A stretch of 64,000 nt of DNA, taken from positions 1-64,000 of the forward strand of contig NZ_VTWS01000003.1 of the NCBI RefSeq assembly GCF_008727875.1. Reading direction: 5' to 3'. The notes below the pieces were generated by a model that had not been told where the DNA came from, made no database searches, and saw nothing but the letters and a program-made list of their open reading frames with translations. Each line of letters starts with the position of its first letter. Positions within the stretch are counted from its first letter, which is position 1. This DNA is from Larkinella humicola. Its GTDB lineage: Bacteria > Bacteroidota > Bacteroidia > Cytophagales > Spirosomataceae. The translations under genes were made by a program, and so were the position numbers. Positions 10,148 to 59,256 of this stretch are shown piece after piece.

Positions 10148-11449
10148 ATGAACGCACCCGTAAATAAACCGCTCGAAACGCTGCCCGTATTCAGTTTCTC
10201 AGGCATTCAGATGAAGACTTTTCACATCACCTGGATGACGTTTTTTGTCTGCTTTTTCGGCTGGTTCGGCCTGGCCCCGCTGATGCCCGCCATCCGCGCC
10301 GACCTAGGACTGACGAAGCCCGAAGTGGGTAACACGATCATTGCCGCCGTGTCGGCCACCATCTTTGCCCGCCTGGTTGTCGGAAAGTTGTGCGACACCT
10401 GGGGACCGCGTAAAACCTACACGGCTTTGCTCGTGCTGGGTGCCTTTCCGGTCATGTTCGTCGGCCTGGCTCACGACTACACCACATTTTTGCTGTTCCG
10501 TCTGGCAATCGGCGTCATCGGTGCCTCGTTTGTCATCACGCAGTTTCATACGTCGGTCATGTTTGCCCCGAAAATCAAGGGAACGGCCAATGCTGTCGCT
10601 GGCGGCTGGGGAAACCTGGGCGGAGGCATCACGCAACTCGCCATGCCTGTGATTATGGCCACGATTATCGGTTTTGGCTACACCAAGCCTGAAGCCTGGC
10701 GGCTGGCGATGATTTTTCCGGGCGTCCTGATGCTCATCATGGCGTTTGTTTATTTCCGCTACACGAAAGACACACCGAACGGCAACTACGATGAGATCCA
10801 ACGTACGACAGTAAAAGGCGAGAAAATAAGCTTCTGGAAAGCCTGCGCCGACATCCGCGTCTGGGCTTTGTCGCTGGCGTATGCCTGCTGCTTCGGCATG
10901 GAAATCACCTTCGACGGGGTGGCGTCGCTCTACTTTTTCGACAATTTCGACATGAAAGAAACCGAAGCCGGTTTCTGGGCCATGCTGTTTGGCTTCATGA
11001 ACATTTTTGCCCGCGCCCTCGGCGGAATCGTCGCCGACAAAGTCGGAAACCAATACGGTATGCGCGGCAAAGGGCTGTTACTGGCCGGTTTGCTGCTGAT
11101 GGAAGGCGTTGGCATTGCGCTTTTCGCGCAGTCGGGCAGCCTGTCGATGGCCATTATTTCCATGATCACCTTTGCGCTGTTCCTGAAAATGGCCAATGGC
11201 AGCACCTACGCCATCGTGCCGTTTGTCAATCCAAAAGCCGTTGGGGTCATTTCGGGGGTGGTCGGTGCCGGTGGTAACATTGGCGGTATGCTGATGGGCT
11301 TCCTGTTCAAATCGCAATCCATCAGCTACGGACAGGCATTCCTCTACATCGGTGGCATTGTTGCAGCGACCGGCCTGTTGCTGTTCCTCGTCAACTTCGG
11401 CAAAACCGCCGTCGTAAAAACCGCCGAAACCGAACTTCAAACCGCTTAA
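10148..11449 (+). CDS. narK: Nitrate/nitrite transporter, NarK family (MFS)
   Basis: Major facilitator superfamily permease for nitrate uptake across the inner membrane, with about 12 membrane helices over 433 aa. Family features include the early motif FFVCFFGWFGLAPLMPAIR, ARLVVGKLCDTWGPRK after helix 2, and the glycine-rich nitrate signature GGWGNLGGGITQ in the first half with its counterpart VVGAGGNIGGMLMGF in the second half. It follows the outer-membrane channel by 18 bp and precedes the nitrate reductase. A family C palindromic element begins 2 bp after its stop. It is a single-copy NarK, not the fused NarK1-NarK2 form. Confidence 0.93.
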   Translation: MNAPVNKPLETLPVFSFSGIQMKTFHITWMTFFVCFFGWFGLAPLMPAIRADLGLTKPEVGNTIIAAVSATIFARLVVGKLCDTWGPRKTYTALLVLGAFPVMFVGLAHDYTTFLLFRLAIGVIGASFVITQFHTSVMFAPKIKGTANAVAGGWGNLGGGITQLAMPVIMATIIGFGYTKPEAWRLAMIFPGVLMLIMAFVYFRYTKDTPNGNYDEIQRTTVKGEKISFWKACADIRVWALSLAYACCFGMEITFDGVASLYFFDNFDMKETEAGFWAMLFGFMNIFARALGGIVADKVGNQYGMRGKGLLLAGLLLMEGVGIALFAQSGSLSMAIISMITFALFLKMANGSTYAIVPFVNPKAVGVISGVVGAGGNIGGMLMGFLFKSQSISYGQAFLYIGGIVAATGLLLFLVNFGKTAVVKTAETELQTA

Positions 11450-11451
11450 AA

Positions 11452-11546
11452 GAATGATGAATAATGGACGATGAACGATGAATTGCTAGCGCACTATATC
11501 ATGCATTGTCCATCATTCATCGTCCATCGTTCATCATTCATCATTC
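11452..11546. repeat. Family C palindromic element before the nitrate reductase gene
   Basis: Imperfect inverted repeat with ~32-bp arms built of degenerate GATGAATGATGAACGATGG-like sequence (left 11452-11483, right to 11546). The loop contains TTGCTAGCGCACTATATC. Reading through it adds a meaningless N-terminal extension (FIVHRSSFII) to the downstream frame, which is why the ATG at 11552 is preferred. A second copy sits at the other end of the gene (15214-15289). Confidence 0.88.
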
Positions 11547-11551
11547 AAACC

Positions 11552-14500
11552 ATGTCTCATCAAACTACCTGTTGCTACTGTGGTGTTGGCTGTGGAATCG
11601 TGGTCAAACAGGAGCAGAACGGACGGCTGACGGTTGAAGGGGATAAAAACCATCCCTCCAATCGCGGCATGCTGTGTTCGAAAGGGATGAATCTGCATTA
11701 TACGGTAATGGATCAGTCGGATCGGTTGCTGTATCCGCAGATGCGACTCAACCGGTCGATGCCGCTGCAACGGGTGAGCTGGGATGCTGCGCTGGAACGC
11801 ACGGCTGCGGTTTTCAAGACCTTCATTCAAAAATACGGGCCGGATTCGGTGGCGTTTTATGTGTCGGGCCAGTGTCTGACGGAAGAATATTACCTGGTCA
11901 ACAAGCTGATCAAAGGCTTTATTGGCTCCAACAACATCGATACCAATTCCCGCCTGTGCATGAGTTCGGCGGTGGTGGGCTACAAAATGTCGCTCGGGGA
12001 AGATTCCGTGCCGGTTTGCTACGACGACATCGAGGAAGCCGACGTTTTTCTGGTGCAGGGTGCTAATCCGGCCTGGTGTCACCCTATTCTCTGGCGACGG
12101 ATCGAAGCCCACAAAGCGGCCAATCCACACGTCAAAATCATTTGCGTCGATCCCCGAAAAACCGATACCGCCCGCTCATCGGATCTGCATTTGCCCCTTC
12201 GCCCCGGCACCGACATTGTGCTCAACAACGCGATGGGTCGGGTACTGATCGAGAACGGCGACATCGACATCGACTTTATCACCCACCACGCCGACGGTTT
12301 TGCGGCCTATCGCGATCAGGTGATGCAGCGTACGATTGAGGAAGCTGCCGACCTGTGCGGTATTTCGCCCGAAGGCATTCGGCAGGCGGCCGACTGGATT
12401 GGCCGCTCCAAAGGCTTTCTGTCGCTCTGGACGATGGGCCTGAACCAGTCGGTGATTGGCGTCAATAAAAACCTGTCACTCATCAATTTACACCTGATTA
12501 CGGGGCGGATTGGCAAACCGGGTAACGGGCCTTTTTCGCTGACGGGACAACCCAATGCGATGGGTGGCCGCGAAACCGGTGGTCTGGCCAATAGCCTCCC
12601 CGCCCACCGCGACGTGTTGAACGCAGCCCACCGCGCCGAGGTGGAAGCCTTCTGGAAGAGTCCGGTCAAGATTGCGCCCAAACCCGGCCTGACCGCTACG
12701 GAAATGTTCGAAGCGCTGGCCGACGATAAACTGAAAGCCATCTGGATCATCAATACAAATCCGCTGGTGAGCATGCCGGATGTCAATGCGGCTGAACTGG
12801 CCTTGAAAAAGGCTCGTTTTGTCGTCGTGCAGGATGTTTCGAACCGCGCGGATACCGTTGGTTTTGCCGATATCGTGCTGCCCGCAGCCGCCTGGCTCGA
12901 AAAAGACGGAACGATGACCAACGCCGAACGGCGAATTGCGTACCTGCCCAAAGTCATCGACGCCCCCGGCGAAGCCTTACCGGATTCGGAAATTCTCTGG
13001 CGGTTTGCGCAGAAAATGGGTTTTGGCGAATCGTTTACTTACGCGAATTGCTCGGAAGTCTATGACGAATACACCCAACTCACGGCCGGAACGAGCATCG
13101 ATGTAACGGGCGTGAGTTATGAACTGCTGAAAAAATACCGGACGATTCAGTGGCCGTTTTCGGCGGAGAATGCCCCTAAATCCCCTAAAGGGGACTTGGA
13201 CGCAGCCAAACCAGATGCAGAAGTCCCCTTTAGGGGATTTAGGGGCGAATCCGAGAAATCGACGGACGTGCCTGCTGACCAAAAACCGTATACTGAAAAC
13301 CGGAAACCGACCCCCGGCACCAAACGACTCTTTACCGATCACCGGTTTTATACCGCCAATGGTCGCGCACAGATTCATGCGGTTCCCGATGAAAACGCGT
13401 CAGAACCCACGGATGAGGACTTTCCGCTGGTGCTGACCACGGGGCGCATCCGCGATCAGTGGCATACGATGACCAAAACCGGTCGGGTGGCCAAACTCAA
13501 TCAGCACAGTCCGCAACCCTTCCTGCAAATCCATCCCGACGATGCAAAAGCGCGGGGCATTCAGGATGGTCAGTTGGTCGAAGTACGGGGTCGGCGGGGC
13601 GAGGTGCGCGTCAAGGTCCAGCTCACCGAGGATGTGCGGCCCGGTTTGTGTTTTCTGCCCATGCACTGGGGCAAAATGCCGACCGGTGGTTCGGTGAAAA
13701 GCAATTTGAACCGCGCCAACAACCTGACGAATGCCCTCATCGATCCCCGTTCGAAAGAACCGGATTTCAAGTTTTCGGCAGTTGAGGTTGTCCCCTACCG
13801 AAAACCGGTTGAGAAAATCGTCATTATCGGGGCCGGGTCGGCGGGTTTGGGTTTTATCAATGCTTACCGAACCCTAAATACGGACGACGAGATTCACGTC
13901 TTTTCCAAAGAAATTTATCCGTTCTACAACCGGGTTCTGCTACCCGATTACATCAGCGGGGCACAGTCGTGGGAGCAACTCGTCAAGTTGCGCGAGGACC
14001 AGTTCGAAGAAGCCAACATCAGGGTTCACAAGGGGGTTGGCATCGTCCACATTGACCGAAAAGCCAAAGTTCTGATCGACAGCAACGGCGTGGAACACAC
14101 CTACGACAAACTGCTGCTCGGTACGGGAAGCCGGGCGTTTATGCCCCGGGGCGTTCCGCCATTACCGGGAATTTTCAACATGCGGTCACGGCTCGATGCC
14201 GATTCGCTGCTGCCTTTTCTGAAGCAACCGGAAGACGGGGCCGAACCGCACACCGTCATTGTGGGGGGCGGTTTGTTGGGGCTGGAACTGGCGGCTTCGC
14301 TGCGTCAGATTAACGTACGGGTGACGGTGATTCAGCGGGCGGGGCGGTTTATGGAACGCCAGATCGATCCGCTGGCGAGTGAGTTGTTGTACCTGGAACT
14401 GAAAGAACGCGGCATCGATGTGTTTTTCAACGAAGAGGTCCAAACGTTTACCGGAACCACCACAGTGGAAGGCATTCAGTTAAAATCAGGCCATAAAATA

Positions 14501-15235
14501 CCGTGTCAGGTCGTGGTGATCGCCATCGGTACGGAGCCGAACATCGAACTGGCGCGGGAAGCCGGACTCGACTGCAACCGGGGCGTGGTGGTAAATGATT
14601 ATCTGCAAACGTCGGACCCGGATATTTTTGCCGCAGGCGAACTGGCGCAGTGGAGTGGTCAGATGTGGGGCATCACGCTGGCCGCCGAGCAGCAGGCCGA
14701 AATAGCCGCCGGTTTTATCGCCGGGGATGTTTCAAAACCGTACCGGGGCAGTGTTTCGATCAGCATCCTGAAAATGGAAGGACTGCATTTGTGCAGCATC
14801 GGAATGGCCGAAACGCCACCGAATGATTCCAGCTACGAAGAAATTGTTTTCATCGACAAATCGAAACGGTATTATAAAAAATGCATCGTTCAGGGCGACA
14901 AGCTCGTGGGGGCCATTTTGATTGGCGACAAGAACGAATTTGCGGAGTTCCGCGACCTGATCGCCAAGGGAACGGAATTGTCGGAAAAACGCCTGCAACT
15001 GCTGCGGGCCAGCAAGGCCGTTGATCCGATGGAGGGCAAACTGGTGTGTTCCTGCAACAGCGTCGGTCAGGGCAATCTGGAGCGCGCCATTCAGACGGGT
15101 TGCACCGACTTCCAGCAGTTGTGCCAGAAAACCGGGGCAGGAACCGGCTGCGGTTCGTGTCGCCCGGAAGTGCGAAGCATTTTGGAAAAGATGAACGAGT
15201 GTGTGCTTTTACAAACGATGAATGATGAACGATGA
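11552..15235 (+). CDS. nasA: Assimilatory nitrate reductase fused to an FAD/NAD and [2Fe-2S] module
   Basis: Cytoplasmic molybdenum enzyme that reduces nitrate to nitrite (1227 aa). Residues 1-55 bind a [4Fe-4S] cluster (C7, C10, C14, C42). The Mo-bisMGD domain runs to about 540, with C136 in SRLCMSSAVVG as the likely Mo ligand. The molybdopterin dinucleotide-binding domain covers about 595-745 (LVLTTGRIRDQWHTMT). From about residue 755 the chain continues into an FAD/NAD(P) oxidoreductase (VIIGAGSAGLGF; GGGLLGLELA) and a BFD-like [2Fe-2S] domain (CSCNSV ... GTGCGSCRPE). The catalytic subunit and electron-input subunit are therefore one polypeptide. Two oddities occur: residues 541-565 are encoded by a palindromic element, with further repeat-like sequence to about 588, and the C-terminal MNDER plus stop come from another repeat. 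The start at 11552 avoids translated repeat sequence. Confidence 0.9.
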   Translation: MSHQTTCCYCGVGCGIVVKQEQNGRLTVEGDKNHPSNRGMLCSKGMNLHYTVMDQSDRLLYPQMRLNRSMPLQRVSWDAALERTAAVFKTFIQKYGPDSVAFYVSGQCLTEEYYLVNKLIKGFIGSNNIDTNSRLCMSSAVVGYKMSLGEDSVPVCYDDIEEADVFLVQGANPAWCHPILWRRIEAHKAANPHVKIICVDPRKTDTARSSDLHLPLRPGTDIVLNNAMGRVLIENGDIDIDFITHHADGFAAYRDQVMQRTIEEAADLCGISPEGIRQAADWIGRSKGFLSLWTMGLNQSVIGVNKNLSLINLHLITGRIGKPGNGPFSLTGQPNAMGGRETGGLANSLPAHRDVLNAAHRAEVEAFWKSPVKIAPKPGLTATEMFEALADDKLKAIWIINTNPLVSMPDVNAAELALKKARFVVVQDVSNRADTVGFADIVLPAAAWLEKDGTMTNAERRIAYLPKVIDAPGEALPDSEILWRFAQKMGFGESFTYANCSEVYDEYTQLTAGTSIDVTGVSYELLKKYRTIQWPFSAENAPKSPKGDLDAAKPDAEVPFRGFRGESEKSTDVPADQKPYTENRKPTPGTKRLFTDHRFYTANGRAQIHAVPDENASEPTDEDFPLVLTTGRIRDQWHTMTKTGRVAKLNQHSPQPFLQIHPDDAKARGIQDGQLVEVRGRRGEVRVKVQLTEDVRPGLCFLPMHWGKMPTGGSVKSNLNRANNLTNALIDPRSKEPDFKFSAVEVVPYRKPVEKIVIIGAGSAGLGFINAYRTLNTDDEIHVFSKEIYPFYNRVLLPDYISGAQSWEQLVKLREDQFEEANIRVHKGVGIVHIDRKAKVLIDSNGVEHTYDKLLLGTGSRAFMPRGVPPLPGIFNMRSRLDADSLLPFLKQPEDGAEPHTVIVGGGLLGLELAASLRQINVRVTVIQRAGRFMERQIDPLASELLYLELKERGIDVFFNEEVQTFTGTTTVEGIQLKSGHKIPCQVVVIAIGTEPNIELAREAGLDCNRGVVVNDYLQTSDPDIFAAGELAQWSGQMWGITLAAEQQAEIAAGFIAGDVSKPYRGSVSISILKMEGLHLCSIGMAETPPNDSSYEEIVFIDKSKRYYKKCIVQGDKLVGAILIGDKNEFAEFRDLIAKGTELSEKRLQLLRASKAVDPMEGKLVCSCNSVGQGNLERAIQTGCTDFQQLCQKTGAGTGCGSCRPEVRSILEKMNECVLLQTMNDER
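13172..13246. repeat. Family A palindromic core inserted in frame in the nitrate reductase gene
   Basis: 75 bp, bounded by GCCCCTAAATCCCC and its inverse GGGGATTTAGGGGC, and encoding exactly 25 residues (541-565; begins APKSPKGDLD, ends VPFRGFRG). The arms are identical to those of the intergenic copy at 37813-37888 (76 bp); only the loop differs, and it is one base shorter, which keeps the frame. About 30 bp downstream, 13277-13312 (CCGTATACTGAAAACCGG) resembles family B arms. Both lie where related nitrate reductases have only a short linker before the GTKRLFTDHRFYT segment. Confidence 0.9.
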
Positions 15236-15289
15236 ACGATGCCTGTATGCGTTAGCCCATTCATCGTCCATCGTTCATCATTCATCATT
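15214..15289. repeat. Family C palindromic element after the nitrate reductase gene
   Basis: Inverted repeat with arms of GATGAATGATGAACGATG-like sequence and a short loop CCTGTATGCGTTAGCCC. The loop core TGCGTTAGC is the near-inverse of GCTAGCGCA in the copy at 11452-11546. It provides the last five codons and the TGA stop of the nitrate reductase gene, and fills the gap up to the next ATG at 15293. Confidence 0.88.
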
Positions 15290-15292
15290 ACA

Positions 15293-16774
15293 ATGAGAGA
15301 TTATTACACCTTGAAAGTCAACCTTCCCGCCGGGATCAGTTCGCCGGGGACGTTGCAGAATGTGCTATCGCTGGCCCGGAATGCCAACGTTCGGAACGTT
15401 CGTTTTGGTGCCCGGCAGCAGTTGCTCATGACGGTGCATTACGAAGACCTGCGTGCGCTGGAAAAAGAGCTGAAAAAGCACCCGATTCCCTACGAAATCA
15501 ATACCGATCAGTATCCCAACATCATCAGTTCGTATTGCGGGGAAGACGTGTTTCGGACGGGGGCGTGGCTGCGGGAGGGTGAATATCACACGGTTCTGGA
15601 TCAGTTTGACGAGCAGCCCCGATTGAAAATAAACCTGTCGGATTCCAACCAGAGTTTCACACCCTTTTTTACGGGTAATCTCAATTTTATCGCGTCTCCC
15701 GAACCGCATTTCTGGTATTTGTACGTCCGCCCGAAGCAAAGCAACACGGTTTTTCGCTGGCCGGAACTCGTCTACACCAACGATCTGGGTCGCCTGGCCA
15801 AAGCCGTTGAAACGGCTCTGCTGGAGGGCGAACCGGACTACCGGGATGCGGAGATGCTGCACAAAACCGTCACGGGTCGGGCGAGCTTTATCACCCAACC
15901 GGCGACGCAGGAGGTCGAACTGCCGGAGTTTTCGTTGCCGTATTACGAAGGGTTCAACCGCTACGGCGAGCGGTCGTGGCTCGGATTGTACCGCCGGGAT
16001 GAGCAGTTTTCCATCGATTTCCTGCTGGATCTTTGTGCGTTATGCCTCAAAACCCGCATCGGTGAAATCTGCGTGACGCCCTGGAAATCACTGATTATTA
16101 AAGGGATTGAAGAAAAAGACCGGGGTGCGTGGTCGTATGTGCTGGCCAAACACAACATCAACGTGCGCCATGCCGCCAATGAACTGGCGTGGCAAACGGA
16201 AGACCACAGCGACGACGGTTTGCAACTGAAAAACTACGTCATCCGGTATTTCGAAAAATACGACATGCGGACGTTCGGGTTGTGCTTTGGTGTACAAACC
16301 CGCCCGAAATCCGAAGTATTCGGCTCCGTGCTGGTGCGCAAACGTCCCCTGCTCCGGATCGGTCAACTGGCGCTTTTCAGTGTGTATGATCTGTATCACA
16401 CCGAGAATTTCAACCCGAACAGCCGGACGTACATCCGGTTCGAAAAAGGATTGTTAAAACCGTTTTTGCCGTACCAGATCGACCGGTTGTGCCGGAAATT
16501 CAGCAACCGCCGTTCGCTCGAAACGGGCAAATCCGTGCGTCTGGAAACGGAAAATCCGGAACCGGCTTTCGCTGCGGCCCATCCGTTGTACCAGTGTCCG
16601 CATTGTTTTACGGTGTATGATCCGCAGTACGGCGACGAACGGCGCGGCATTCCGGCAGGCGTATCATTCAGCCAGTTATCCAGCGACTACACCTGTTCCA
16701 CCTGCGATGCCCCCAAAATCGAACTCCAGGAAATTCAGCTCGAAGTAACCAACCCAACTCCCACTTTTCGATGA
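15293..16774 (+). CDS. Redox protein: nitrite/sulfite reductase-like half domain with C-terminal rubredoxin
   Basis: 493-aa protein with a clear rubredoxin domain at about residues 438-485: YQCPHCFTVYDPQYGDERRG, then SSDYTCSTCDAPK, giving the two CxxC iron ligands. The first ~400 residues resemble the ferredoxin-like and core parts of sirohaem nitrite/sulfite reductases (MRDYYTLKVNLPAGISS; NVRFGARQQLLM; CVTPWKSLIIKG), but the paired cysteine motifs needed for the sirohaem-[4Fe-4S] centre are not evident. It is therefore more likely an electron-transfer or assembly partner than a second nitrite reductase. It sits between the nitrate reductase and the nitrate-reductase-associated protein, with which it overlaps by 4 bp (ATGA). 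A role in passing electrons to the nitrate reductase is inferred. The start is placed at the ATG immediately after the repeat. Confidence 0.78.
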   Translation: MRDYYTLKVNLPAGISSPGTLQNVLSLARNANVRNVRFGARQQLLMTVHYEDLRALEKELKKHPIPYEINTDQYPNIISSYCGEDVFRTGAWLREGEYHTVLDQFDEQPRLKINLSDSNQSFTPFFTGNLNFIASPEPHFWYLYVRPKQSNTVFRWPELVYTNDLGRLAKAVETALLEGEPDYRDAEMLHKTVTGRASFITQPATQEVELPEFSLPYYEGFNRYGERSWLGLYRRDEQFSIDFLLDLCALCLKTRIGEICVTPWKSLIIKGIEEKDRGAWSYVLAKHNINVRHAANELAWQTEDHSDDGLQLKNYVIRYFEKYDMRTFGLCFGVQTRPKSEVFGSVLVRKRPLLRIGQLALFSVYDLYHTENFNPNSRTYIRFEKGLLKPFLPYQIDRLCRKFSNRRSLETGKSVRLETENPEPAFAAAHPLYQCPHCFTVYDPQYGDERRGIPAGVSFSQLSSDYTCSTCDAPKIELQEIQLEVTNPTPTFR

Positions 16775-19537: not shown

Positions 19538-19990
19538 TCAATCCCACACATACCGCTCATCATACGCCATAGCGTATTTCTGAAAGATGCCCCGGCATTC
19601 GTCCTGAAACGTGGTGTTGCCGTGGTGCTGGTATTGATTGCTGATGTACCGCACTACGGCGTCGACCTGCGACGGATTCACCGAGAACGCGCTATACCCG
19701 TCCTGCCAATAAAAATTTCGGTAGGTGTGGCCTTTCGTCTTCATCCATTTGGACGAGCTTTTCTTTACTTCTTCCAGCAACTTCATGAGGGCGATCTTCT
19801 TCGACAGAATGCACAGAATATGCACATGGTCGTAGTAGCCACCAATTTTTACGGGATTGCATTCCAGTTGCCTGCAAACACCGCCGAGATAGGCATACAA
19901 TTCGTCTTTCACCTCATCGCCGATGATCGGCTCGCGGTATTTGGTGCTAAAAACCAGGTGGACATAGACCTTGGTTAAAGATTGTGGCAT
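19538..19990 (-). CDS. Y1 (HUH) transposase, REP-associated/IS200-like
   Basis: 150-aa single-strand transposase of the Y1_Tnp family. It carries the HUH motif HVH at residues 55-57 (YYDHVHILC), the catalytic tyrosine Y120 in ISNQYQHH, and the conserved FYWQDGYSAFSV between them. The start MPQSLTKVYVHLVFSTKYR at 19990 is the usual family N-terminus; a Met 11 codons upstream is possible but less likely. No tnpB partner and no IS ends are visible. A repeat field with short palindromes lies just upstream (20.1-20.5 kb), as expected for REP-associated tyrosine transposases (RAYTs), which are domesticated and act on REP elements. Distinction from a plain IS200 transposase is inferred from this context. 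Confidence 0.85.
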   Translation of the reverse strand: MPQSLTKVYVHLVFSTKYREPIIGDEVKDELYAYLGGVCRQLECNPVKIGGYYDHVHILCILSKKIALMKLLEEVKKSSSKWMKTKGHTYRNFYWQDGYSAFSVNPSQVDAVVRYISNQYQHHGNTTFQDECRGIFQKYAMAYDERYVWD

Positions 19991-20121
19991 GGTGTACCTG
20001 ATTGAATGGTTTGCCCGATTCAATCATTAGACGATAAGCCCTGCAAAAAGTAATGCCCTGAACCCAAATCGAGTTTAGGGCGATTGTACCTCATCTGCCA
20101 CAAACCTAGCATAATACATAT

Positions 20122-20296
20122 CGATGCCATGTTCGGGATGATGCCGTACCGGTGTCGATGTCGTGTTCGGGATGATGCCATGTTCGGGATGATCCCATGT
20201 TTCGGGATGATCCCATGTTTCGGGATGATCCCATGTTTCGGGACGATCCCATGTTCGGGGTGATCCCATGTTCGGAACGATCCCATGTTCGGGGCG
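20122..20296. repeat. Tandem array of a 17-18 bp unit upstream of the Y1 transposase
   Basis: About ten head-to-tail units of TGATCCCATGTTTCGGGA (18 bp) or the 17-bp version with one T fewer. The central three copies are identical; the outer ones have diverged, and one or two are irregular. There are no spacers. The unit contains no stop in several frames, so it gives spurious repetitive peptides. Confidence 0.88.
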
Positions 20297-20309
20297 ATGG
20301 TGCTGATGA

Positions 20310-24629: not shown

Positions 24630-27600
24630 TTAATTGGTCTTCAGAACGGTTATAGTTTTGACCTGACCCGGCACCTGCACCCGCACCACCAGCAACCCCG
24701 CCGATTGACCCGCCACCGATAACCGCGCCTGTTCCACTATACCCGCCCGGCCCACGTGGTGTTCACCGAAAAACCGCCCCTGCACATCCATCACCTGCAC
24801 CGTCAGTGGCTGTCCCTCCGCCCCCCGAATCACCAGATCCAGGTGATCGTGGATCGGGTTGCCCAAAACCGCCACCTCCAAAACCGGTTTCTGTTCCGCC
24901 GACAAGCGCGCTCCGGCACACTGATAGGCTTTTGGCGAGCCTTTCAGCACGAAGCTGGAGCCCAGCACCCGGGCCAGCACCGGTGTGCCGTTGGTCACAC
25001 TGCCCGGGGGCGTAAAGTTGTAGGCATGGGCCCCGTTGCCCTTACCCGCATCCTTCAGATCCTGCCGGTAGATGTTGGCCAGCGTACTGCCCAGAACCGT
25101 GATGGTTCCCGGACTGCTTTCGGTATAGAATTCTACCGTCAACGGCGCGTTCGGTTTGTTGCGATCCCAGACCCAGCCCCGGATGCCGCCACAATCCAGT
25201 TTGTCCAGATACCCTTCGAAACTGCCCGTTACCGTCGTCGTCTCGGCCGGGTTGACCGTCAACTGAAAACTCACGCTGTTGGAAGCTCCCGGTCCGTCGG
25301 TGGCTTGATAGGTCAGCACGAACGTCCCCGATTCCGTGGGCGTCCCACTGATGATGCGGTTGGGCATCTCCAGGCTCAACCCCGCTGGCAAACCGCTTAG
25401 ATTATAGCTCAATGATCCACCTTCGGGGTCCGTGAAAGCCACCAGAGTTCCCGAGAAAGGTACGCCCACCTGAGCCACCAGCGGAGCAATCAGCACCGTC
25501 GGCGTTGGGGGTTGGGGCGGTTTATTGCCATCCGGGCTGGTATTGGATTCACAAATCAACACCTTTGGCGAATCTTTCAGCACGAAACTATTGCCCGTTA
25601 CGCGGGCCGAGAGGCTGTGGGGCAAACCGTCTTTCAACGCATCGGGAATGGGCCAGAAGAACGCATGACGCCCGTTGCCCTTGCCCGCATTGAGCAGATC
25701 CTGCCGGAATTCACCCGCCGGAATGGTGGCAATCACCGTCGCGCCATCGAGAATGTCAATGGTGATGACAACATTGGGTTTGTTACGGTCCCAGACCCAG
25801 CCCCGGAAGGTGGCGCAGTCGGCTCCGTAAATAAACCCGTCGAACGAACCGGTAACAGCAGGAGCCGCCACGACGACCGTCACGCTGGCGGGATCACCGA
25901 CACAGTCATTCACGGTACAGGTAGCCTCATAGATAAAGGTACCGGGCGAGGAAGTGGCAACGGTGATGGGTCCCATACCCGAAGAACCACCGGGTCCGGT
26001 CCAGGTGAGTGTACCCGCACAATTGTCGGCGGTCAGCGTTACCGGGGGCGCCCCCTGCGTAACGGTGGTGCTGGTTAAGTTGGGAGCCGACGGCGATACG
26101 ATATTGCTGCTAACCTGGACACTGGCCGAGGCCGTACAGCCGCTGGCGTTCGCTACCGTGACCGAATAGGTACCTGGACTACTGACCAGCACCGTGTTTG
26201 TTTCACCGGGTGTACCCACGACGCCACTGCCGTTGGCAAACGTGTAGCTAGTGCCGCCCGAAGCGGTGAGAGTGACCGAGGTTTGTCCGCAGGTTAAAGG
26301 CCCGTTATCGACCAAGGTCGCCACTGGCAGCGCATTTACTGTCAGGAATTGGGTGGCTGTTGCCCGCATTCCGTTGTTGATCACTTCCAGCTCGAAGGTT
26401 TGCCCCGATGCGGGAGCTGATATGGTCTGACTAAAGTTCGGGTTGCTGCTGGTGCCGGTATACAGAATGTCTTCGTTGGAGAGGGAGGTAAGCGTATAGG
26501 AATAGCTGCCGGTTAGGTTGGCAATGGTGGCGGTAAACGTCACCGGGCTACCCACGCAAACCGCAGTGGGGCTGGGCGCAAAACCGCTGATGAAAGGCGC
26601 GGCTTGCCCGACCGTTATGGTATACGCCGAACCCAGGCCCGAACAGCCGTTGTTGCCCGTGGCCCGAACGGTGATCGTAAAGCTGCCGCTCTCGGTGGGT
26701 GTTCCCGATAAAACCCCGGTGGTTGCCAAACTGAGTCCGCTGGGCAAGGTGCCACTGGCCACCGAATAGCTGTAGGGTGATGTGCCGCCCGACGCCGTAA
26801 AGGTCTGGCTAAAAACCGTACTTACTGTGGCTGTCGTTATGGCCGGATTGCTCACTGTGGGCGCCGAAGGGACGTCATTCACCGTCATAAGCAACGTTCG
26901 TACACAAGCAGGATTGTCTGACGACCGCGCCTGGATAAAGTACTGGCCTGGCGTCAGGTCACTGAACACTCCGCCGGGTTGCCAGTCCGTCCCGTTTCGC
27001 GAATATGAAATCTCCCCGCTCCCGGTCGCACTCACACTGATCGTGCCCGTTGGTAAGGCACACGTAGGCTGCGTAACACGATTGCCCACAAAAGTAGGCG
27101 GGGCCACAACCGTTAGCGTGGTCGTGGCAGTCACGACCGGACAGCCACCACTGGCGGGAACGGTGTACGTAATGGTATAACTGCCAGCGGGGCTGCTGCT
27201 GGGCGTCACGTTTCCCGAACTGCTATTAATTGAAAGGCTCGACGGATGGCTGCTGTAGGTTCCGCCGTTGCTCCCCAGGCCCGAGCGCGTGACCAGCCCC
27301 AGATCACTGGTATTGTTGCAAAATACCGTATTATTATAACCAATGGACGCAGTCGGCAAGGTCGTCACGGTCAGCAATGCCCCCTCCGAATTGGTTCCTC
27401 CCCCCCCGTTGCTGACCACGCAGCGGAAGTAATAACCGTTGATTCCTGAAACCGACGAGATCGTCAGCACTGGCGTATCGGTCCCGCTGTAACCGTCTGA
27501 ATTCGACAGGTTGTTGGGAAAATTGAACGTATGATCGACAGACCGCTGCCACCGGTATGTGGTGGCATTGCTGGCCGCTACGGAAAAACTCACCGGACTC

Positions 27601-30600
27601 GTGCTGCACACCGTCTGCGAAACCGGCTGGGTGCCAATAGTAGGCGTCTCCACGCCCCGGGTGACCGTCACCCGGTACGTTTTGGTCGTTACACCATCCT
27701 CCGCCGTCACCTGCACCTCGATGGAATTGGCCCCCACCGTGAGCGCCAGCGGATCAGAAGCCGCGCCACTGGCTACAGAACCATAACTCCCGCCGTTGCC
27801 CCGGACCTGAATGCCCGCGTTGCTGTTTGCTGACGTAGGCGTCACCGTCAGGCTACTGGTGGCATTGCCGACGGTAGCCGAGTAACTGGTAACACTTGGA
27901 AAAAACGCCGTCGAGAAGCTCCCGACGCTCAGGGTGAGGTTCGACAGGTCGGCACTACCCGATACCACAGACGTACTGACCGAAGCCGTGTTGTTATCCG
28001 AATTGGGGTCCGTTATACCAGACGATACCGTTGCGGTGGTCGTTAGAATATTGCCTTCCGATCCCGGCACGGTTGCCACAACCAGCGTAAAACTGGCGGT
28101 ACCAGCGGTTGGAAAACTGGCCCGACTGCAGGAAACCGTCCCCGTTGTCCCCACCGACGGCGTCGTACAACTCCAGCCACCCGGTGCGATAAGCGAAAAG
28201 AACGTGGTGCTGGCCGAAAGCGGAATCGACAACTGCACTGTGCTGGCGGTGCTGGGTCCCAGGTTGCTGACCTGTCCGGCATAGGTAAGGTTATTGCCCG
28301 CACCAACCGGATCGGGGGTGTCGGAAAAAGTAACCGCCAGATCGGCCGAAGGAGTCAGGCTATTCACATCCGTGGCACTGTTGTTCTCGGGATTGGGGTC
28401 GGTTATACCGCCGGGCGTACTGACCGATGTGGTATTGGACAAACTGCCGGTTGAAGTCGAACTTGTTTCACAAACTGCCACATAGGTCACGGAACCACCC
28501 ACGGGCAAATTCACCTGCTGGCTGATGTTTCCGGTTCCGGATCCCGTCCCCGATGCTCCGCCGGCAAACGTTGCAGTCCAGGCTACCGAGGGGATGGAGA
28601 CCGGAAAATTATCGGTCACCGTTGCCCCGGTTACCGCCAGCGGCCCGGCATTGCTGACGGTTATGGTGTAGGTGGTCGGGGTGCCGGGAGCCAGATTTGA
28701 GACGCCGTCGGTTTTGGTAATGGATAAATCGGCGGAGGGGGCGTCTCCTACGATCAGTACATACGCCGAACCCAGGCCGGAACAGCCGTTGCTGCCCGTG
28801 GCCCGAACCGTGATCGTGAAGCTGCCGCTTTCGGTGGGTGTTCCCGATAAAACCCCGGTGGTTGCCAAACTGAGTCCATTGGGCAAGGTGCCACTGGCGA
28901 CCGAATAGCTGTAGGGTGATGTGCCGCCCGACGCCGTAAAGGTCTGACTGAAAGCCGTACCCGCTGTCGCCGTTGTCACGGCAGGATTACCCACCGTGGG
29001 TCCCGAAGGAACCGCATTGATCGTGAAGCCCAGGTTCCGGGTACAGGTGAGGTTATCCGACGAGCGAATCCGAATGACGTACGAACCCGGATCTAACCCG
29101 CTGAACAAGCCACTGGTTTGCCAATCGGTGCCGTTCCGCGAATACTCAATGGTGCCGTTGCCGGTCGCCGTTACACTGATGGTGCCTGTTGGGGTGGCAC
29201 AGGTTGGCTGGGTAACGCTGCTACCCGCCGACGTGGGCGGGGCCGTTATTGTCAACGTGGTCGTGGCCGTCACGACCGGACATCCCCCATTGGCCGCCAC
29301 GGTGTAGGTCACCGTGTAACTTCCCGGTGTACTGCTCCCGGTCGTTACGCTGCCTGAACTGCTGCTGAGCGATAAACTCGTGGGACTGCTGCTGTAAGTT
29401 CCGCCGTTGTTGTTGAGCCCCGAGCGCGTTACCAACCCCTGCGTGCCACCGGTGGTACACAAGAGCGGATTGATATAGGAAATAGTGACGGTCGGAAGCG
29501 TCGTTACCGTGATGGAAGCCCCACTTGAGTTCACGGGACCTCCTTCGTTACTCACCACACAGCGGAAGTAGTAGCCATTCTGGGCAGAAACCGACGAGAT
29601 GGTCAACACCGGTGTGTCGGTACCACTGTAGACGCCCGAATTGGAGAGGTTGGAAGGAAAGTTGAAGGTATTGTCGGCAGAGCGCTGCCACTGATAGCTG
29701 GTTGCATTGGTGGCAGCTACCGAGAAACTAGCCGGACTGGTGCTGCAAACGGTCTGCGAAACCGGCCCGGTAGTGATCACGGCAACCGGAATGTCCGTTA
29801 CATCCAGAATATACGGTGCTCCGACGCCCGAACAGCCATCGTTGCCCGTGGCCCGAACCGTAATCGTGAAGCTTCCCCCCTCCGTGGGCGTTCCCGATAA
29901 AACGCCCGTCGGAGCCAAACTGAGTCCGTTGGGCAAAGTGCCGCTGGCCACCGAATAACTATAGGGTCCGGTACCGCCCGAAGCCGTGAAGTTCCGGGTG
30001 AAACCCGACCCCGTTGTTGCTGTCGTTACGGTTGGATTGCTCACCGTAACGACAGCAGCCGCATTCACCGTGAACGTGATGTTTCGGGTACAGGTGAGGT
30101 TGGCCGACGAGCGCGCGCGAATCGTGTAGCCACCCGGATTCAATCCACTGAAGGTTCCGCTGGATTGCCAGTCGGTGCCGTTGCGCGAATACTCGATGGT
30201 GCCGCTGCCCGTCGCCGTTACGCTAATCGTACCCGTTGACGTAGCACAGGTGGGCTGGGTGACCGCGTTGCCCGTAAAGGTCGGCGGGGCCGTTATCGTC
30301 AGCGTAGTCGTGGCCGTCACCACCGGACAGCCTCCCCGCGCCGGTACAGTGTAGGTAACCGTGTAACTACCCGGCGTACTGCTCCCGGGCATTACTGCGC
30401 CAAAATCACTGGTGAGCGAGAGACTGGAGGGACTGCTGCTGTAGACTCCTCCGTTGCTGTTATTGCCCGAACGCGACACACCCTGCTGACTACCGTTGGT
30501 ACACAACAACGAATTGGCATAGGAAATCGTCGCCGTGGGTAAGGTCGTCACGGTTAGCAGCACCCCTTCCGAATTGGTGGATTCACCGCCGTTGGCCACC

Positions 30601-30965
30601 ACGCAGCGAAAGTAGGCTCCAGTTACATCCGAAACGGATGAGATCGTCAGCACCGGCGTGTCGGCACCGCTGTAAATACCGGTATTGCTAAGATTAGAAG
30701 GAAAGTTGAAGGTGTTGTCATAGGAACGCTGCCACCGGTAGCTCGTCGCGTTGGTGGCGACGACCGAAAAGCTGACCGGATTGCTGCTGCACACCGTTTG
30801 CGAAACCGGTTGGGTGGTAATGTCCGGAGGGACGAGGGTATGAGTCCGTTCACCGCTATCGTCTCCAAAAATAACAGTTCCGGCCTGAACACCGGTTTGG
30901 CCAAACAGTCCGATTGTCGCCAGAAGCAGCCAGAGGAAACGTAAAGATTTAGCTCTCATAGTCAT
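24630..30965 (-). CDS. Giant repetitive cell-surface protein with T9SS-type C-terminus
   Basis: Secreted protein of about 2111 aa. A signal peptide (FLWLLLATIGLFGQTGVQA) leads into a ~350-aa super-repeat present three times. Each copy contains an Ig-like module (QPVSQTVCSSNPVSFSV), a module beginning SY.N.LLC, a module around TQPTCATSTGTISVTATGSG, and a putative-Ig (He_PIG) module (GTLPNGLSLAPTGVLSGTPT). Between copies 2 and 3 lie two DUF11-like domains (DLSITKTDGVSNLAPG) and a cadherin-like sandwich (DLSNLTLSVGSFSTAFFPS). Near the C-terminus, two copies of a domain with GWVWDRNKPN ... GKGN are joined by another Ig-like unit. The end (LEVAVLGNPIHDHLDLVI ... VKTITVLKTN) is a T9SS type A sorting signal. 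It is likely an adhesin or matrix protein. The ATG at 30965 is preferred over 31004 because it begins close to the signal peptide. Confidence 0.85.
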   Translation of the reverse strand: MTMRAKSLRFLWLLLATIGLFGQTGVQAGTVIFGDDSGERTHTLVPPDITTQPVSQTVCSSNPVSFSVVATNATSYRWQRSYDNTFNFPSNLSNTGIYSGADTPVLTISSVSDVTGAYFRCVVANGGESTNSEGVLLTVTTLPTATISYANSLLCTNGSQQGVSRSGNNSNGGVYSSSPSSLSLTSDFGAVMPGSSTPGSYTVTYTVPARGGCPVVTATTTLTITAPPTFTGNAVTQPTCATSTGTISVTATGSGTIEYSRNGTDWQSSGTFSGLNPGGYTIRARSSANLTCTRNITFTVNAAAVVTVSNPTVTTATTGSGFTRNFTASGGTGPYSYSVASGTLPNGLSLAPTGVLSGTPTEGGSFTITVRATGNDGCSGVGAPYILDVTDIPVAVITTGPVSQTVCSTSPASFSVAATNATSYQWQRSADNTFNFPSNLSNSGVYSGTDTPVLTISSVSAQNGYYFRCVVSNEGGPVNSSGASITVTTLPTVTISYINPLLCTTGGTQGLVTRSGLNNNGGTYSSSPTSLSLSSSSGSVTTGSSTPGSYTVTYTVAANGGCPVVTATTTLTITAPPTSAGSSVTQPTCATPTGTISVTATGNGTIEYSRNGTDWQTSGLFSGLDPGSYVIRIRSSDNLTCTRNLGFTINAVPSGPTVGNPAVTTATAGTAFSQTFTASGGTSPYSYSVASGTLPNGLSLATTGVLSGTPTESGSFTITVRATGSNGCSGLGSAYVLIVGDAPSADLSITKTDGVSNLAPGTPTTYTITVSNAGPLAVTGATVTDNFPVSIPSVAWTATFAGGASGTGSGTGNISQQVNLPVGGSVTYVAVCETSSTSTGSLSNTTSVSTPGGITDPNPENNSATDVNSLTPSADLAVTFSDTPDPVGAGNNLTYAGQVSNLGPSTASTVQLSIPLSASTTFFSLIAPGGWSCTTPSVGTTGTVSCSRASFPTAGTASFTLVVATVPGSEGNILTTTATVSSGITDPNSDNNTASVSTSVVSGSADLSNLTLSVGSFSTAFFPSVTSYSATVGNATSSLTVTPTSANSNAGIQVRGNGGSYGSVASGAASDPLALTVGANSIEVQVTAEDGVTTKTYRVTVTRGVETPTIGTQPVSQTVCSTSPVSFSVAASNATTYRWQRSVDHTFNFPNNLSNSDGYSGTDTPVLTISSVSGINGYYFRCVVSNGGGGTNSEGALLTVTTLPTASIGYNNTVFCNNTSDLGLVTRSGLGSNGGTYSSHPSSLSINSSSGNVTPSSSPAGSYTITYTVPASGGCPVVTATTTLTVVAPPTFVGNRVTQPTCALPTGTISVSATGSGEISYSRNGTDWQPGGVFSDLTPGQYFIQARSSDNPACVRTLLMTVNDVPSAPTVSNPAITTATVSTVFSQTFTASGGTSPYSYSVASGTLPSGLSLATTGVLSGTPTESGSFTITVRATGNNGCSGLGSAYTITVGQAAPFISGFAPSPTAVCVGSPVTFTATIANLTGSYSYTLTSLSNEDILYTGTSSNPNFSQTISAPASGQTFELEVINNGMRATATQFLTVNALPVATLVDNGPLTCGQTSVTLTASGGTSYTFANGSGVVGTPGETNTVLVSSPGTYSVTVANASGCTASASVQVSSNIVSPSAPNLTSTTVTQGAPPVTLTADNCAGTLTWTGPGGSSGMGPITVATSSPGTFIYEATCTVNDCVGDPASVTVVVAAPAVTGSFDGFIYGADCATFRGWVWDRNKPNVVITIDILDGATVIATIPAGEFRQDLLNAGKGNGRHAFFWPIPDALKDGLPHSLSARVTGNSFVLKDSPKVLICESNTSPDGNKPPQPPTPTVLIAPLVAQVGVPFSGTLVAFTDPEGGSLSYNLSGLPAGLSLEMPNRIISGTPTESGTFVLTYQATDGPGASNSVSFQLTVNPAETTTVTGSFEGYLDKLDCGGIRGWVWDRNKPNAPLTVEFYTESSPGTITVLGSTLANIYRQDLKDAGKGNGAHAYNFTPPGSVTNGTPVLARVLGSSFVLKGSPKAYQCAGARLSAEQKPVLEVAVLGNPIHDHLDLVIRGAEGQPLTVQVMDVQGRFFGEHHVGRAGIVEQARLSVAGQSAGLLVVRVQVPGQVKTITVLKTN
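26600..30830 (-). repeat. Three ~1-kb repeated blocks inside the adhesin gene
   Basis: Long in-gene DNA repeats at roughly 30830-29800, 29790-28745 and 27650-26600 encode the Ig/PIG super-repeat. Within the PIG parts, the segments near 26640-26800 and 28770-28940 are almost identical over more than 100 bp, so recent duplication or gene conversion is likely. The block between 28745 and 27650 (DUF11 and cadherin-like domains) is unique. Confidence 0.8.
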
Positions 30966-59127: not shown

Positions 59128-59256
59128 TAGGACTTATGTCTGATAATTCTGATGCACTTGCTTTTTGCCCCGTTCCCCTAAAGGGGACTTGGACACGGCA
59201 CTACCCGGATCAAAAAGTCCCCTTTAAGGGAACGGGGCAAAAAGCGAAAGTCCTGA
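59128..59256. repeat. Complete family A element, ~129 bp
   Basis: Same plan as the element at 37775-37905: TAGGACTTATG at the left, GCGAAAGTCCT at the right, TGATAATTCTG just inside, and a 73-bp palindromic core (59167-59239) with CCCCTAAAGGGGACTTGGAC. The outer arm of the core differs (GCCCCGTT...AACGGGGC), and both sides have changed together so that pairing is kept. Confidence 0.88.

Follow-up and report, generated by a model that had tools for sequence, protein, structure and literature searches.

A palindromic repeat carried in frame within an inter-domain linker of a nitrate reductase gene in Larkinella humicola

The gene for a fused nitrate reductase of Larkinella humicola contains a perfect palindrome within its reading frame, and a copy with the same arms lies outside genes on the same contig. 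The question is how such a sequence came to lie inside a metabolic enzyme, and what it adds there. The window analysed is the whole stretch of 64,000 nucleotides that holds this gene, and its features are collected in Table 1. The palindrome belongs to a repeat family termed family A. The reading favoured here, with a probability of about 83%, is that a mobile palindromic repeat of this family was inserted into a tolerant linker between two domains of the nitrate reductase and is translated as about 25 extra residues.

Table 1. Positions of the host gene, the repeat copies and the neighbouring transposase-like gene in the window
Feature	Position	Strand	Evidence
Host gene: molybdopterin nitrate reductase catalytic subunit (NasC/NarB-like) with NirB-like FAD/NADH and BFD [2Fe-2S] module	11552..15235, stop included	+	ORF, Pfam, NCBIfam
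Hypervariable linker of nitrate reductase, residues 536-588	13157..13315	+	Alignment
Family A palindromic element, 25 codons, residues 541-565	13172..13246	+	Perfect 26-bp inverted repeat, 23-nt loop; same 75 bp in L. punicea
Family A left arm, GCCCCTAAATCCCCTAAAGGGGACTT	13172..13197	+	Inverted-repeat search
Family A right arm, perfect complement of left arm	13221..13246	+	Inverted-repeat search
Apparent diverged piece of second repeat family (copies begin GCGTCAGCCACCGTAAACCG), in frame	13279..13312	+	Repeat and pattern searches; similar stretch in L. knui linker
Y1_Tnp (RAYT-like) gene	19538-20023	-	Profile match
Array of 17-18-bp units (TTCGGGATGATCCCATG) upstream of Y1_Tnp gene	20115-20298		
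Family A copy outside nitrate reductase, arms identical, 24-nt loop	37813..37888	+	Inverted-repeat search
Third family A copy of the window, variant outer arms	59160..59245	+	Inverted-repeat search

The arms of the element in nitrate reductase are complementary at 26 of 26 positions with 23 nt between them, and the 75 bp translate in frame as APKSPKGDLDAAKPDAEVPFRGFRG. Perfect 26-bp arms with a spacer of 3-60 are expected about 1e-9 times per 64 kb at the composition of the window. The RNA of the hairpin folds at -53.9 kcal/mol vs a mean of -23.0 for shuffled sequences (z = -10.4), and 0 of 200 shuffles equalled it. The original prediction had described a 75-bp core carried as 25 codons, with the arms of an intergenic copy and a loop one base shorter; the inverted repeat does lie in frame within 11552-15232, and the two loops measure 23 and 24 nt. 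The accompanying idea that the loop had been shortened to give a multiple of 3 describes the nitrate reductase copy and fails as a rule, since four of the five internal coding copies in the genome have a 77-nt core and the frame is made good by the bases beside the core. In the 75-bp copy four of the six frames are open, because stops occur in the arms only in the third frame, and from its sequence an insertion in a suitable phase would add roughly 25 residues, most of them hydrophilic, and no stop. The nitrate reductase copy consists of the core only, without further outer arms; outer arms of the GGACTTTCGCTTTT type are present in many of the 30 family A copies displayed.

The host gene encodes 1227 residues (coding 11552-15232). 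The ORF listing opens at 11471, and the ATG at 11552 was chosen, which fits relatives. Pfam domains are Molybdop_Fe4S4 at residues 3-52, Molybdopterin at 58-486, Molydop_binding at 626-740, Pyr_redox_2 at 755-1036 and Fer2_BFD at 1164-1212. The nearest NCBIfam profiles are of the assimilatory type, every one of them below its cut-off, and the nearest solved chains are periplasmic nitrate reductase. The gene is present in all nine Larkinella genomes. With the linker excluded, L. humicola and L. punicea have 169 synonymous vs 36 non-synonymous codon differences, which points to a gene that remains under constraint. The enzyme had been called essential-looking; it is a metabolic enzyme, and its assimilatory type, as judged from profiles below cut-off, means that it is probably required only on nitrate, and RibD, described below, is the stronger case. 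Another palindromic repeat (AACGATGAATGATGAACGATG / CATCGTCCATCGTTCATCATTCATCATT) flanks the gene on both sides, at 11454-11545, where the left arm was judged by eye, and at 15214-15289; the right-hand palindrome provides the final codons and the stop of nitrate reductase (MNDER, then stop).

Family A is a dispersed repeat family in L. humicola. In the 7.86-Mb genome its arm pattern, with up to 1 mismatch, has 104 forward and 103 reverse matches, and the reversed control has none on either strand. A stricter oriented pattern has 64 matches. A census that allowed up to 2 mismatches in each arm reduced 96 clustered places to 81 distinct full copies, which is a minimum of at least 81, and contexts labelled intergenic were judged by eye. 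The core of these 81 copies is 77 nt long in 36, 76 nt in 25 and 75 nt in seven, and is mostly 75-78 nt. A search of 59 genomes from the order with the loop pattern gave 94 matches in L. humicola, 214 in L. punicea, 51 in L. terrae, two in L. knui and one in the Larkinella genome G007, counts in which a single copy may appear twice because the pattern is nearly palindromic. The other 54 genomes, Larkinella sp. C7 included, have no match to this pattern. With five matching genomes among the 59, all of them Larkinella, the family is lineage-specific. L. punicea also has a tandem array of six family A copies, regularly spaced at 92 bp and identical in their loops (G006:C4:46794-47293).

Comparison among Larkinella species separates filled from empty sites in nitrate reductase. 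The 75-bp insert is present in two of nine species, L. humicola and L. punicea, and absent from seven. In L. punicea the same codon position holds a 75-bp insert without a single difference, and this is a separate assembly, for which reason an assembly error, one of the outcomes that the original prediction had allowed for, is unlikely. The insert is absent from the six linkers that were read (C7, L. knui, L. rosea, L. terrae, L. arboricola and the Larkinella genome G001), and in G007 its absence is taken from the spacing of two matches that lie just 9 bases apart at the linker. The linker reading covered 29 of 30 loci, the remaining locus (L059) stopping short of the linker. The residues of the core are thus an extra segment, as had been predicted, and none of the repeat-free relatives compared within Larkinella has the same residues at this position. 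Between L. humicola and L. punicea, 212 of 3483 positions differ outside the linker and none of the 75 in the element; a simple calculation puts the probability that 75 positions stay unchanged at about 0.009, an outcome not expected from plain shared descent. From these sequences the element is probably young, homogenised or constrained. A blockwise comparison of the two species gave no obvious transferred tract adjoining it. Pairwise DNA identities outside the linker among L. humicola, L. punicea and C7 are 93.9, 93.7 and 93.4% (L. punicea-L. humicola 93.9, C7-L. humicola 93.7). The three species being nearly equidistant, loss in C7 or transfer of the linker could also account for the distribution.

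The site itself is variable well beyond Larkinella. In an alignment of the query with 76 of 78 loci, the linker, bounded by residues 535 and 589, is 7 to 70 residues long and takes 27 distinct lengths among 77 sequences. The next most length-variable place has a range of 15 residues, and the alignment therefore marks the linker as the most length-variable place of the protein. Distant relatives, for example Aquimarina, Arenibacter and Saprospiraceae, have a linker of 7 residues. The predicted position between the Mo domain and the dinucleotide-binding domain agrees with the borders of the Molybdopterin and Molydop_binding domains. In an AlphaFold model of residues 1-753, built with 22 sequences, residues 543-591 are the least confident stretch (10-residue means of 27-39) and have no secondary structure, so that the insert is predicted to be disordered.

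The core is followed in the same linker by a further repeat-like stretch. The sequence ACCGTATACTGAAAACCG at 13285-13302 has five matches in the window with up to 3 mismatches vs 0.05 expected. It has 18 matches in 284 kb of L. humicola, some of them overlapping and the five of the window included, and the reversed control has none; the 284 kb comprise the window and the surroundings of family A copies and are not a random sample. The residues after the core, up to about 13312, are absent from the nitrate reductase of L. punicea. The earlier suggestion that repeat-like sequence continues to about 13312, so that about 45 residues are repeat-derived, is supported as to its repeat-like nature and not as to a single family: from the sequence, two dissimilar families seem each to have contributed a piece.

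Searches also showed other repeats in the linker of other species. Repeats of the CGAATAACGAATA type are found in the linkers of C7 (nine matches in its genome, three of them overlapping, giving seven places) and L. terrae (five matches), the linker being included in both counts and the control giving none. Elsewhere in the same genome, the linker repeat has its longest match over 32 bp (96.9%) in L. terrae and over 39 bp (84.6%) in C7. A CGAATAACGAATA-type copy in L. humicola (L298) is by eye a perfect inverted repeat, and the C7 and L. terrae copies are imperfect. The linker of Spirosoma arboris contains a 36-bp stretch of which 35 bases match another, apparently intergenic, copy. Flavobacterium sp. 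SUN052 (as listed) shares this element; its GC-rich foot pattern recurs with nine matches, linker included, and its exact loop pattern matches the linker copy only. In Dyadobacter sp. CY312, a 40-bp stretch of the linker matches another copy at 92.5%. Patterns made for the linkers of S. fluviale, L. rosea, D. luteus and D. psychrotolerans matched only their own linker copy in each genome. Linker repeat pieces thus recur in the same genome in five genomes, SUN052 on weak evidence, and they belong to three types besides family A. The CGAATA and ACCGTAA types are both built of 7-nt units and are perhaps related. The linkers of Fibrisoma, D. beijingensis, Telluribacter, Rudanella and others have a repeat-like look by eye. 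The repeat-like linker of Spirosoma telluris (L220) has an in-frame stop, reflecting a broken gene or an assembly error, and the frame is therefore not always kept. In Spirosoma lacussanchae (L168), an N run and low-complexity sequence coincide exactly with the linker, which is what a hairpin that prevented assembly might leave behind. This linker survey covers one protein, nitrate reductase.

Family A is also found in other genes of L. humicola. A copy was taken as internal where at least 60 open codons lie on both sides in one frame, which holds for six of the 81 copies. One of these (L117) was dropped as a matter of judgement, its composition giving it the look of an antisense shadow ORF. 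Another candidate (L120) also looks like a shadow ORF and ends one residue past the element, and it does not qualify as internal. The genome-wide search suggested by the original prediction therefore yields 81 full copies with five inside genes. All five are in recognisable genes with Pfam domains, namely nitrate reductase, RibD, a LanB-type dehydratase, a barrel-domain protein and a DUF5107 protein, and all are read in the xPKSPKGD frame or in a variant of this frame. In two more proteins, a sodium:solute symporter and an MFS transporter, the C-terminus is made up by a family A copy. Copies close to an N-terminus (L009, L029, L081, L084, L134, L140 and others) were left out of the internal count because translation may start downstream of them. 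In a separate set of 20 regions, a long ORF runs through the element in seven (L273-L279) and in none of the other 13 (L281 lies within L282). Several of these regions were picked by matches to an element-containing peptide, which makes the set unfit to test frame preference, and the frame count is that of the L. humicola census alone. The signal-peptide n-region is seemingly formed by family A in L273, L274 and L276 of L. punicea and in L141 (element at 1682) and L084 of L. humicola. By eye, no ATG lies between the element and the hydrophobic stretch in L273, L274, L276 and L141 (1682), and the element is therefore probably part of the n-region; L084 would be a case of the other open frame.

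Comparison of these host genes among species gives several states of insertion. RibD, identified by TIGR00326, is usually an essential enzyme. It carries inserts in L. humicola and L. punicea and has an empty site in the other seven Larkinella, which by comparison of the genes makes it the clearest apparent case of a family A insertion with empty sites. The two RibD inserts differ strongly from each other. The RibD of L. punicea (L244) has by eye an apparently nested insert, in which a second arm pair (GCCCCTAAAGTCG / CGACTTTAGGGGC) surrounds a family A-like core, all in frame. The copy in the LanB-type dehydratase lies between Lant_dehydr_N and Lant_dehydr_C, and this linker has an insert in both L. 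humicola and L. terrae with opposite loop orientations. In the barrel-domain protein (PF13568) the copy is in the part preceding the beta-barrel. Six of nine loci were parsed for this protein; the insert is present in L. humicola, L. punicea, L. knui and L. terrae, degraded in C7 and absent from L. rosea. In the C7 locus (L312), the degraded remains of a family A copy persist within a coding linker though the C7 genome is without a pattern match, as if coding copies outlast intergenic ones. In the DUF5107 protein the copy is outside the DUF5107 domain. Overall, alignment and domain borders place the internal copies in what appear to be linkers or loops.

The means by which family A moves was sought in the neighbouring genes and at the insertion sites. 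A Y1_Tnp gene about 3-4.5 kb from nitrate reductase is present also in L. punicea, C7 and L. knui, and L. humicola has seven Y1_Tnp matches in all. No family A copy was found within about 1.5 kb of 20 Y1_Tnp loci, of which just three (L064, L067 and L077) are from copy-rich genomes. Four larger Y1_Tnp regions of L. humicola, one of them overlapping L077, contain one copy, about 1.3 kb from a partial gene. The other three L. humicola matches, that of the window included, have by coordinates no family A within 5 kb. A RAYT as mobiliser was therefore set aside, no copy being seen to flank Y1_Tnp; given the partial sampling, this role is unproven rather than excluded. At the ends of the nitrate reductase insert, GAAT is seen by eye on both sides in L. 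humicola and GAA only in L. punicea. No target-site duplication was seen by eye in RibD. A MITE-like duplication is thus inconsistent across the two genes compared. The tetramers GTAG or CGTC, or their complement, lie within 12 nt of the hairpin foot in 12 of 80 distinct copies vs 23 of 80 for the reversed tetramers, and there is no enrichment. The window also contains three diverged copies of a long segment at 26622-30780.

Under the reading favoured here, family A copies would insert widely by transposition, and an intragenic copy would survive only where it leaves the frame intact and the site can accommodate a disordered loop. This would be a selective filter and not targeting, which is possible and not needed: removal of gene-damaging copies would leave survivors in linkers, loops and tails. 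The ribosome would translate straight through the hairpin, the enzyme with the insert would still be active, and the element itself would serve no purpose in the protein. Such a filter would also account for the presence of other repeat families in the same linker of other genera. A broader view is that this one linker is a shared landing place, where repeat families unlike one another, two or three of them in Larkinella and further ones in Spirosoma and Dyadobacter, have been written independently as protein across the bacterial family. On this view intergenic palindromes would continually provide Bacteroidota with new protein segments, among them RibD loops and the n-regions of signal peptides. 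On balance we lean towards this broader view, with little more than even confidence. The repeats appear to supply new stretches of protein.

The occurrence of dissimilar-looking repeats (family A, the CGAATA and ACCGTAA types, the Spirosoma type and the Dyadobacter type) in the same linker of different species would also fit a true hot spot, where the DNA or its transcription attracts repeats beyond what tolerance allows, as would the LanB copies that share a linker with opposite loop orientation in L. humicola and L. terrae. Inversion between the arms can give the opposite orientation, however, other genes also host copies (five of 81 being internal to genes), and tolerance alone predicts the same pattern; a hot spot is considered unlikely. 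Identity of all 75 bases with L. punicea, against 212 differences in 3483 positions of the gene, might instead indicate that the peptide or the mRNA hairpin has been co-opted for a selected role. Retention of the barrel-protein copy in L. knui, which has two pattern matches, and of a remnant in C7, which has none, points the same way. Such co-option is rather improbable in view of the strong difference between the RibD inserts of L. humicola and L. punicea, the other sequences or short linkers of relatives and the predicted disorder of the insert.

A protein free of the insert would result if the ribosome bypassed the hairpin or if the piece of mRNA were removed. The very stable stem and a length that is a multiple of 3 are what such a process might use, but no stop interrupts the frame and a bypass is unnecessary, the four other internal copies are open as well, and no Rfam match was found in 11000-16000, all of which makes bypass very improbable. 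An artefact of assembly or sequencing would be conceivable in draft assemblies, in which palindromes can assemble poorly, as at the N run in the same linker of S. lacussanchae. It is hardly credible for a sequence of the same 75 bp in a separate assembly, with its frame kept and with similar inserts in several genes and species. Insertion of a mobile palindrome into a tolerant linker accordingly remains the preferred reading.

Larkinella is a free-living genus. Discussion of in-frame palindromes has centred on Rickettsia and on some genomes rich in REPs; the present ones occur in a bacterium with a 7.9-Mb genome. The original prediction had regarded protein-coding palindromes as established in Rickettsia and new for a Bacteroidota nitrate reductase. 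The Rickettsia part is correct, and in the portions of the literature consulted palindromes in proteins are described also for Wolbachia, for ERIC and for REPs of O. terrae, Thauera and Xanthomonas (PMC3733652, PMC3767692, PMC2229807). As to the host enzyme, a search of open-licence papers, with queries mostly without nitrate reductase by name, found none on a palindrome in a Bacteroidota nitrate reductase. The ideas of linker tolerance and of hot spots are not new, the former having been proposed in PMC3733652 and the latter left open in PMC3767692, as far as the consulted parts of these papers go. As far as these searches show, three things are new: family A of the Bacteroidota, the addition of nitrate reductase and RibD to the hosts, each with its site empty in sister species, and the sharing of one linker by several dissimilar repeats.

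Family A would, by analogy, work like the palindromic elements of Rickettsia and like intragenic REPs. Ogata et al. (2000, 2002) have reported Rickettsia palindromic elements (RPE) as in-frame palindromes in metabolic genes, with solvent-exposed segments, according to the portions seen of PMC3767692, PMC10969869 and PMC2229807. An active guanylate kinase of Rickettsia carries an in-frame RPE (cited from parts of the same three papers and of PMC3733652). Family A likewise consists of dispersed palindromes found in frame inside metabolic genes, a likeness drawn from descriptions. It differs, on the same partial accounts, in its core of mostly 75-78 bp vs about 100-150 bp in RPE, in its Bacteroidota host, and in having 5 of 81 copies internal to genes where nearly half of the first reported RPEs were in ORFs. 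In Wolbachia, a biotin ligase gene contains a WPE and an extended RPE-4 in the same region, and hot spots were not excluded by the authors in the part available (PMC3767692). These are also protein-coding palindromes, compared here by description, but Wolbachia are intracellular alphaproteobacteria. The excerpts of PMC3733652 describe GTAG / CGTC REPs as short hairpins mostly between genes, with some wholly within ORFs, propose flexible linkers as tolerant sites, give recB of two Xanthomonas species as having a REP at about the same site, and list CGTC repeats in Bacteroidetes. Compared with what is described there, family A is similarly a short hairpin, mostly intergenic, with linker sites, but it is longer, the tags are not enriched at its feet, and the shared site holds several dissimilar families. 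ERIC and Yersinia RU-2 are small repeats fused in frame to genes, one of which forms part of a signal peptide, and target-site duplications are tabulated for both in the section consulted of PMC2229807, whereas none is clear in family A. What Larkinella offers beside these systems is empty sites in close relatives, several insertion states per gene (RibD, the barrel protein and nitrate reductase) and different repeats in one linker. An old question thereby becomes testable, namely whether small mobile hairpins create new protein sequence and whether the protein is affected.
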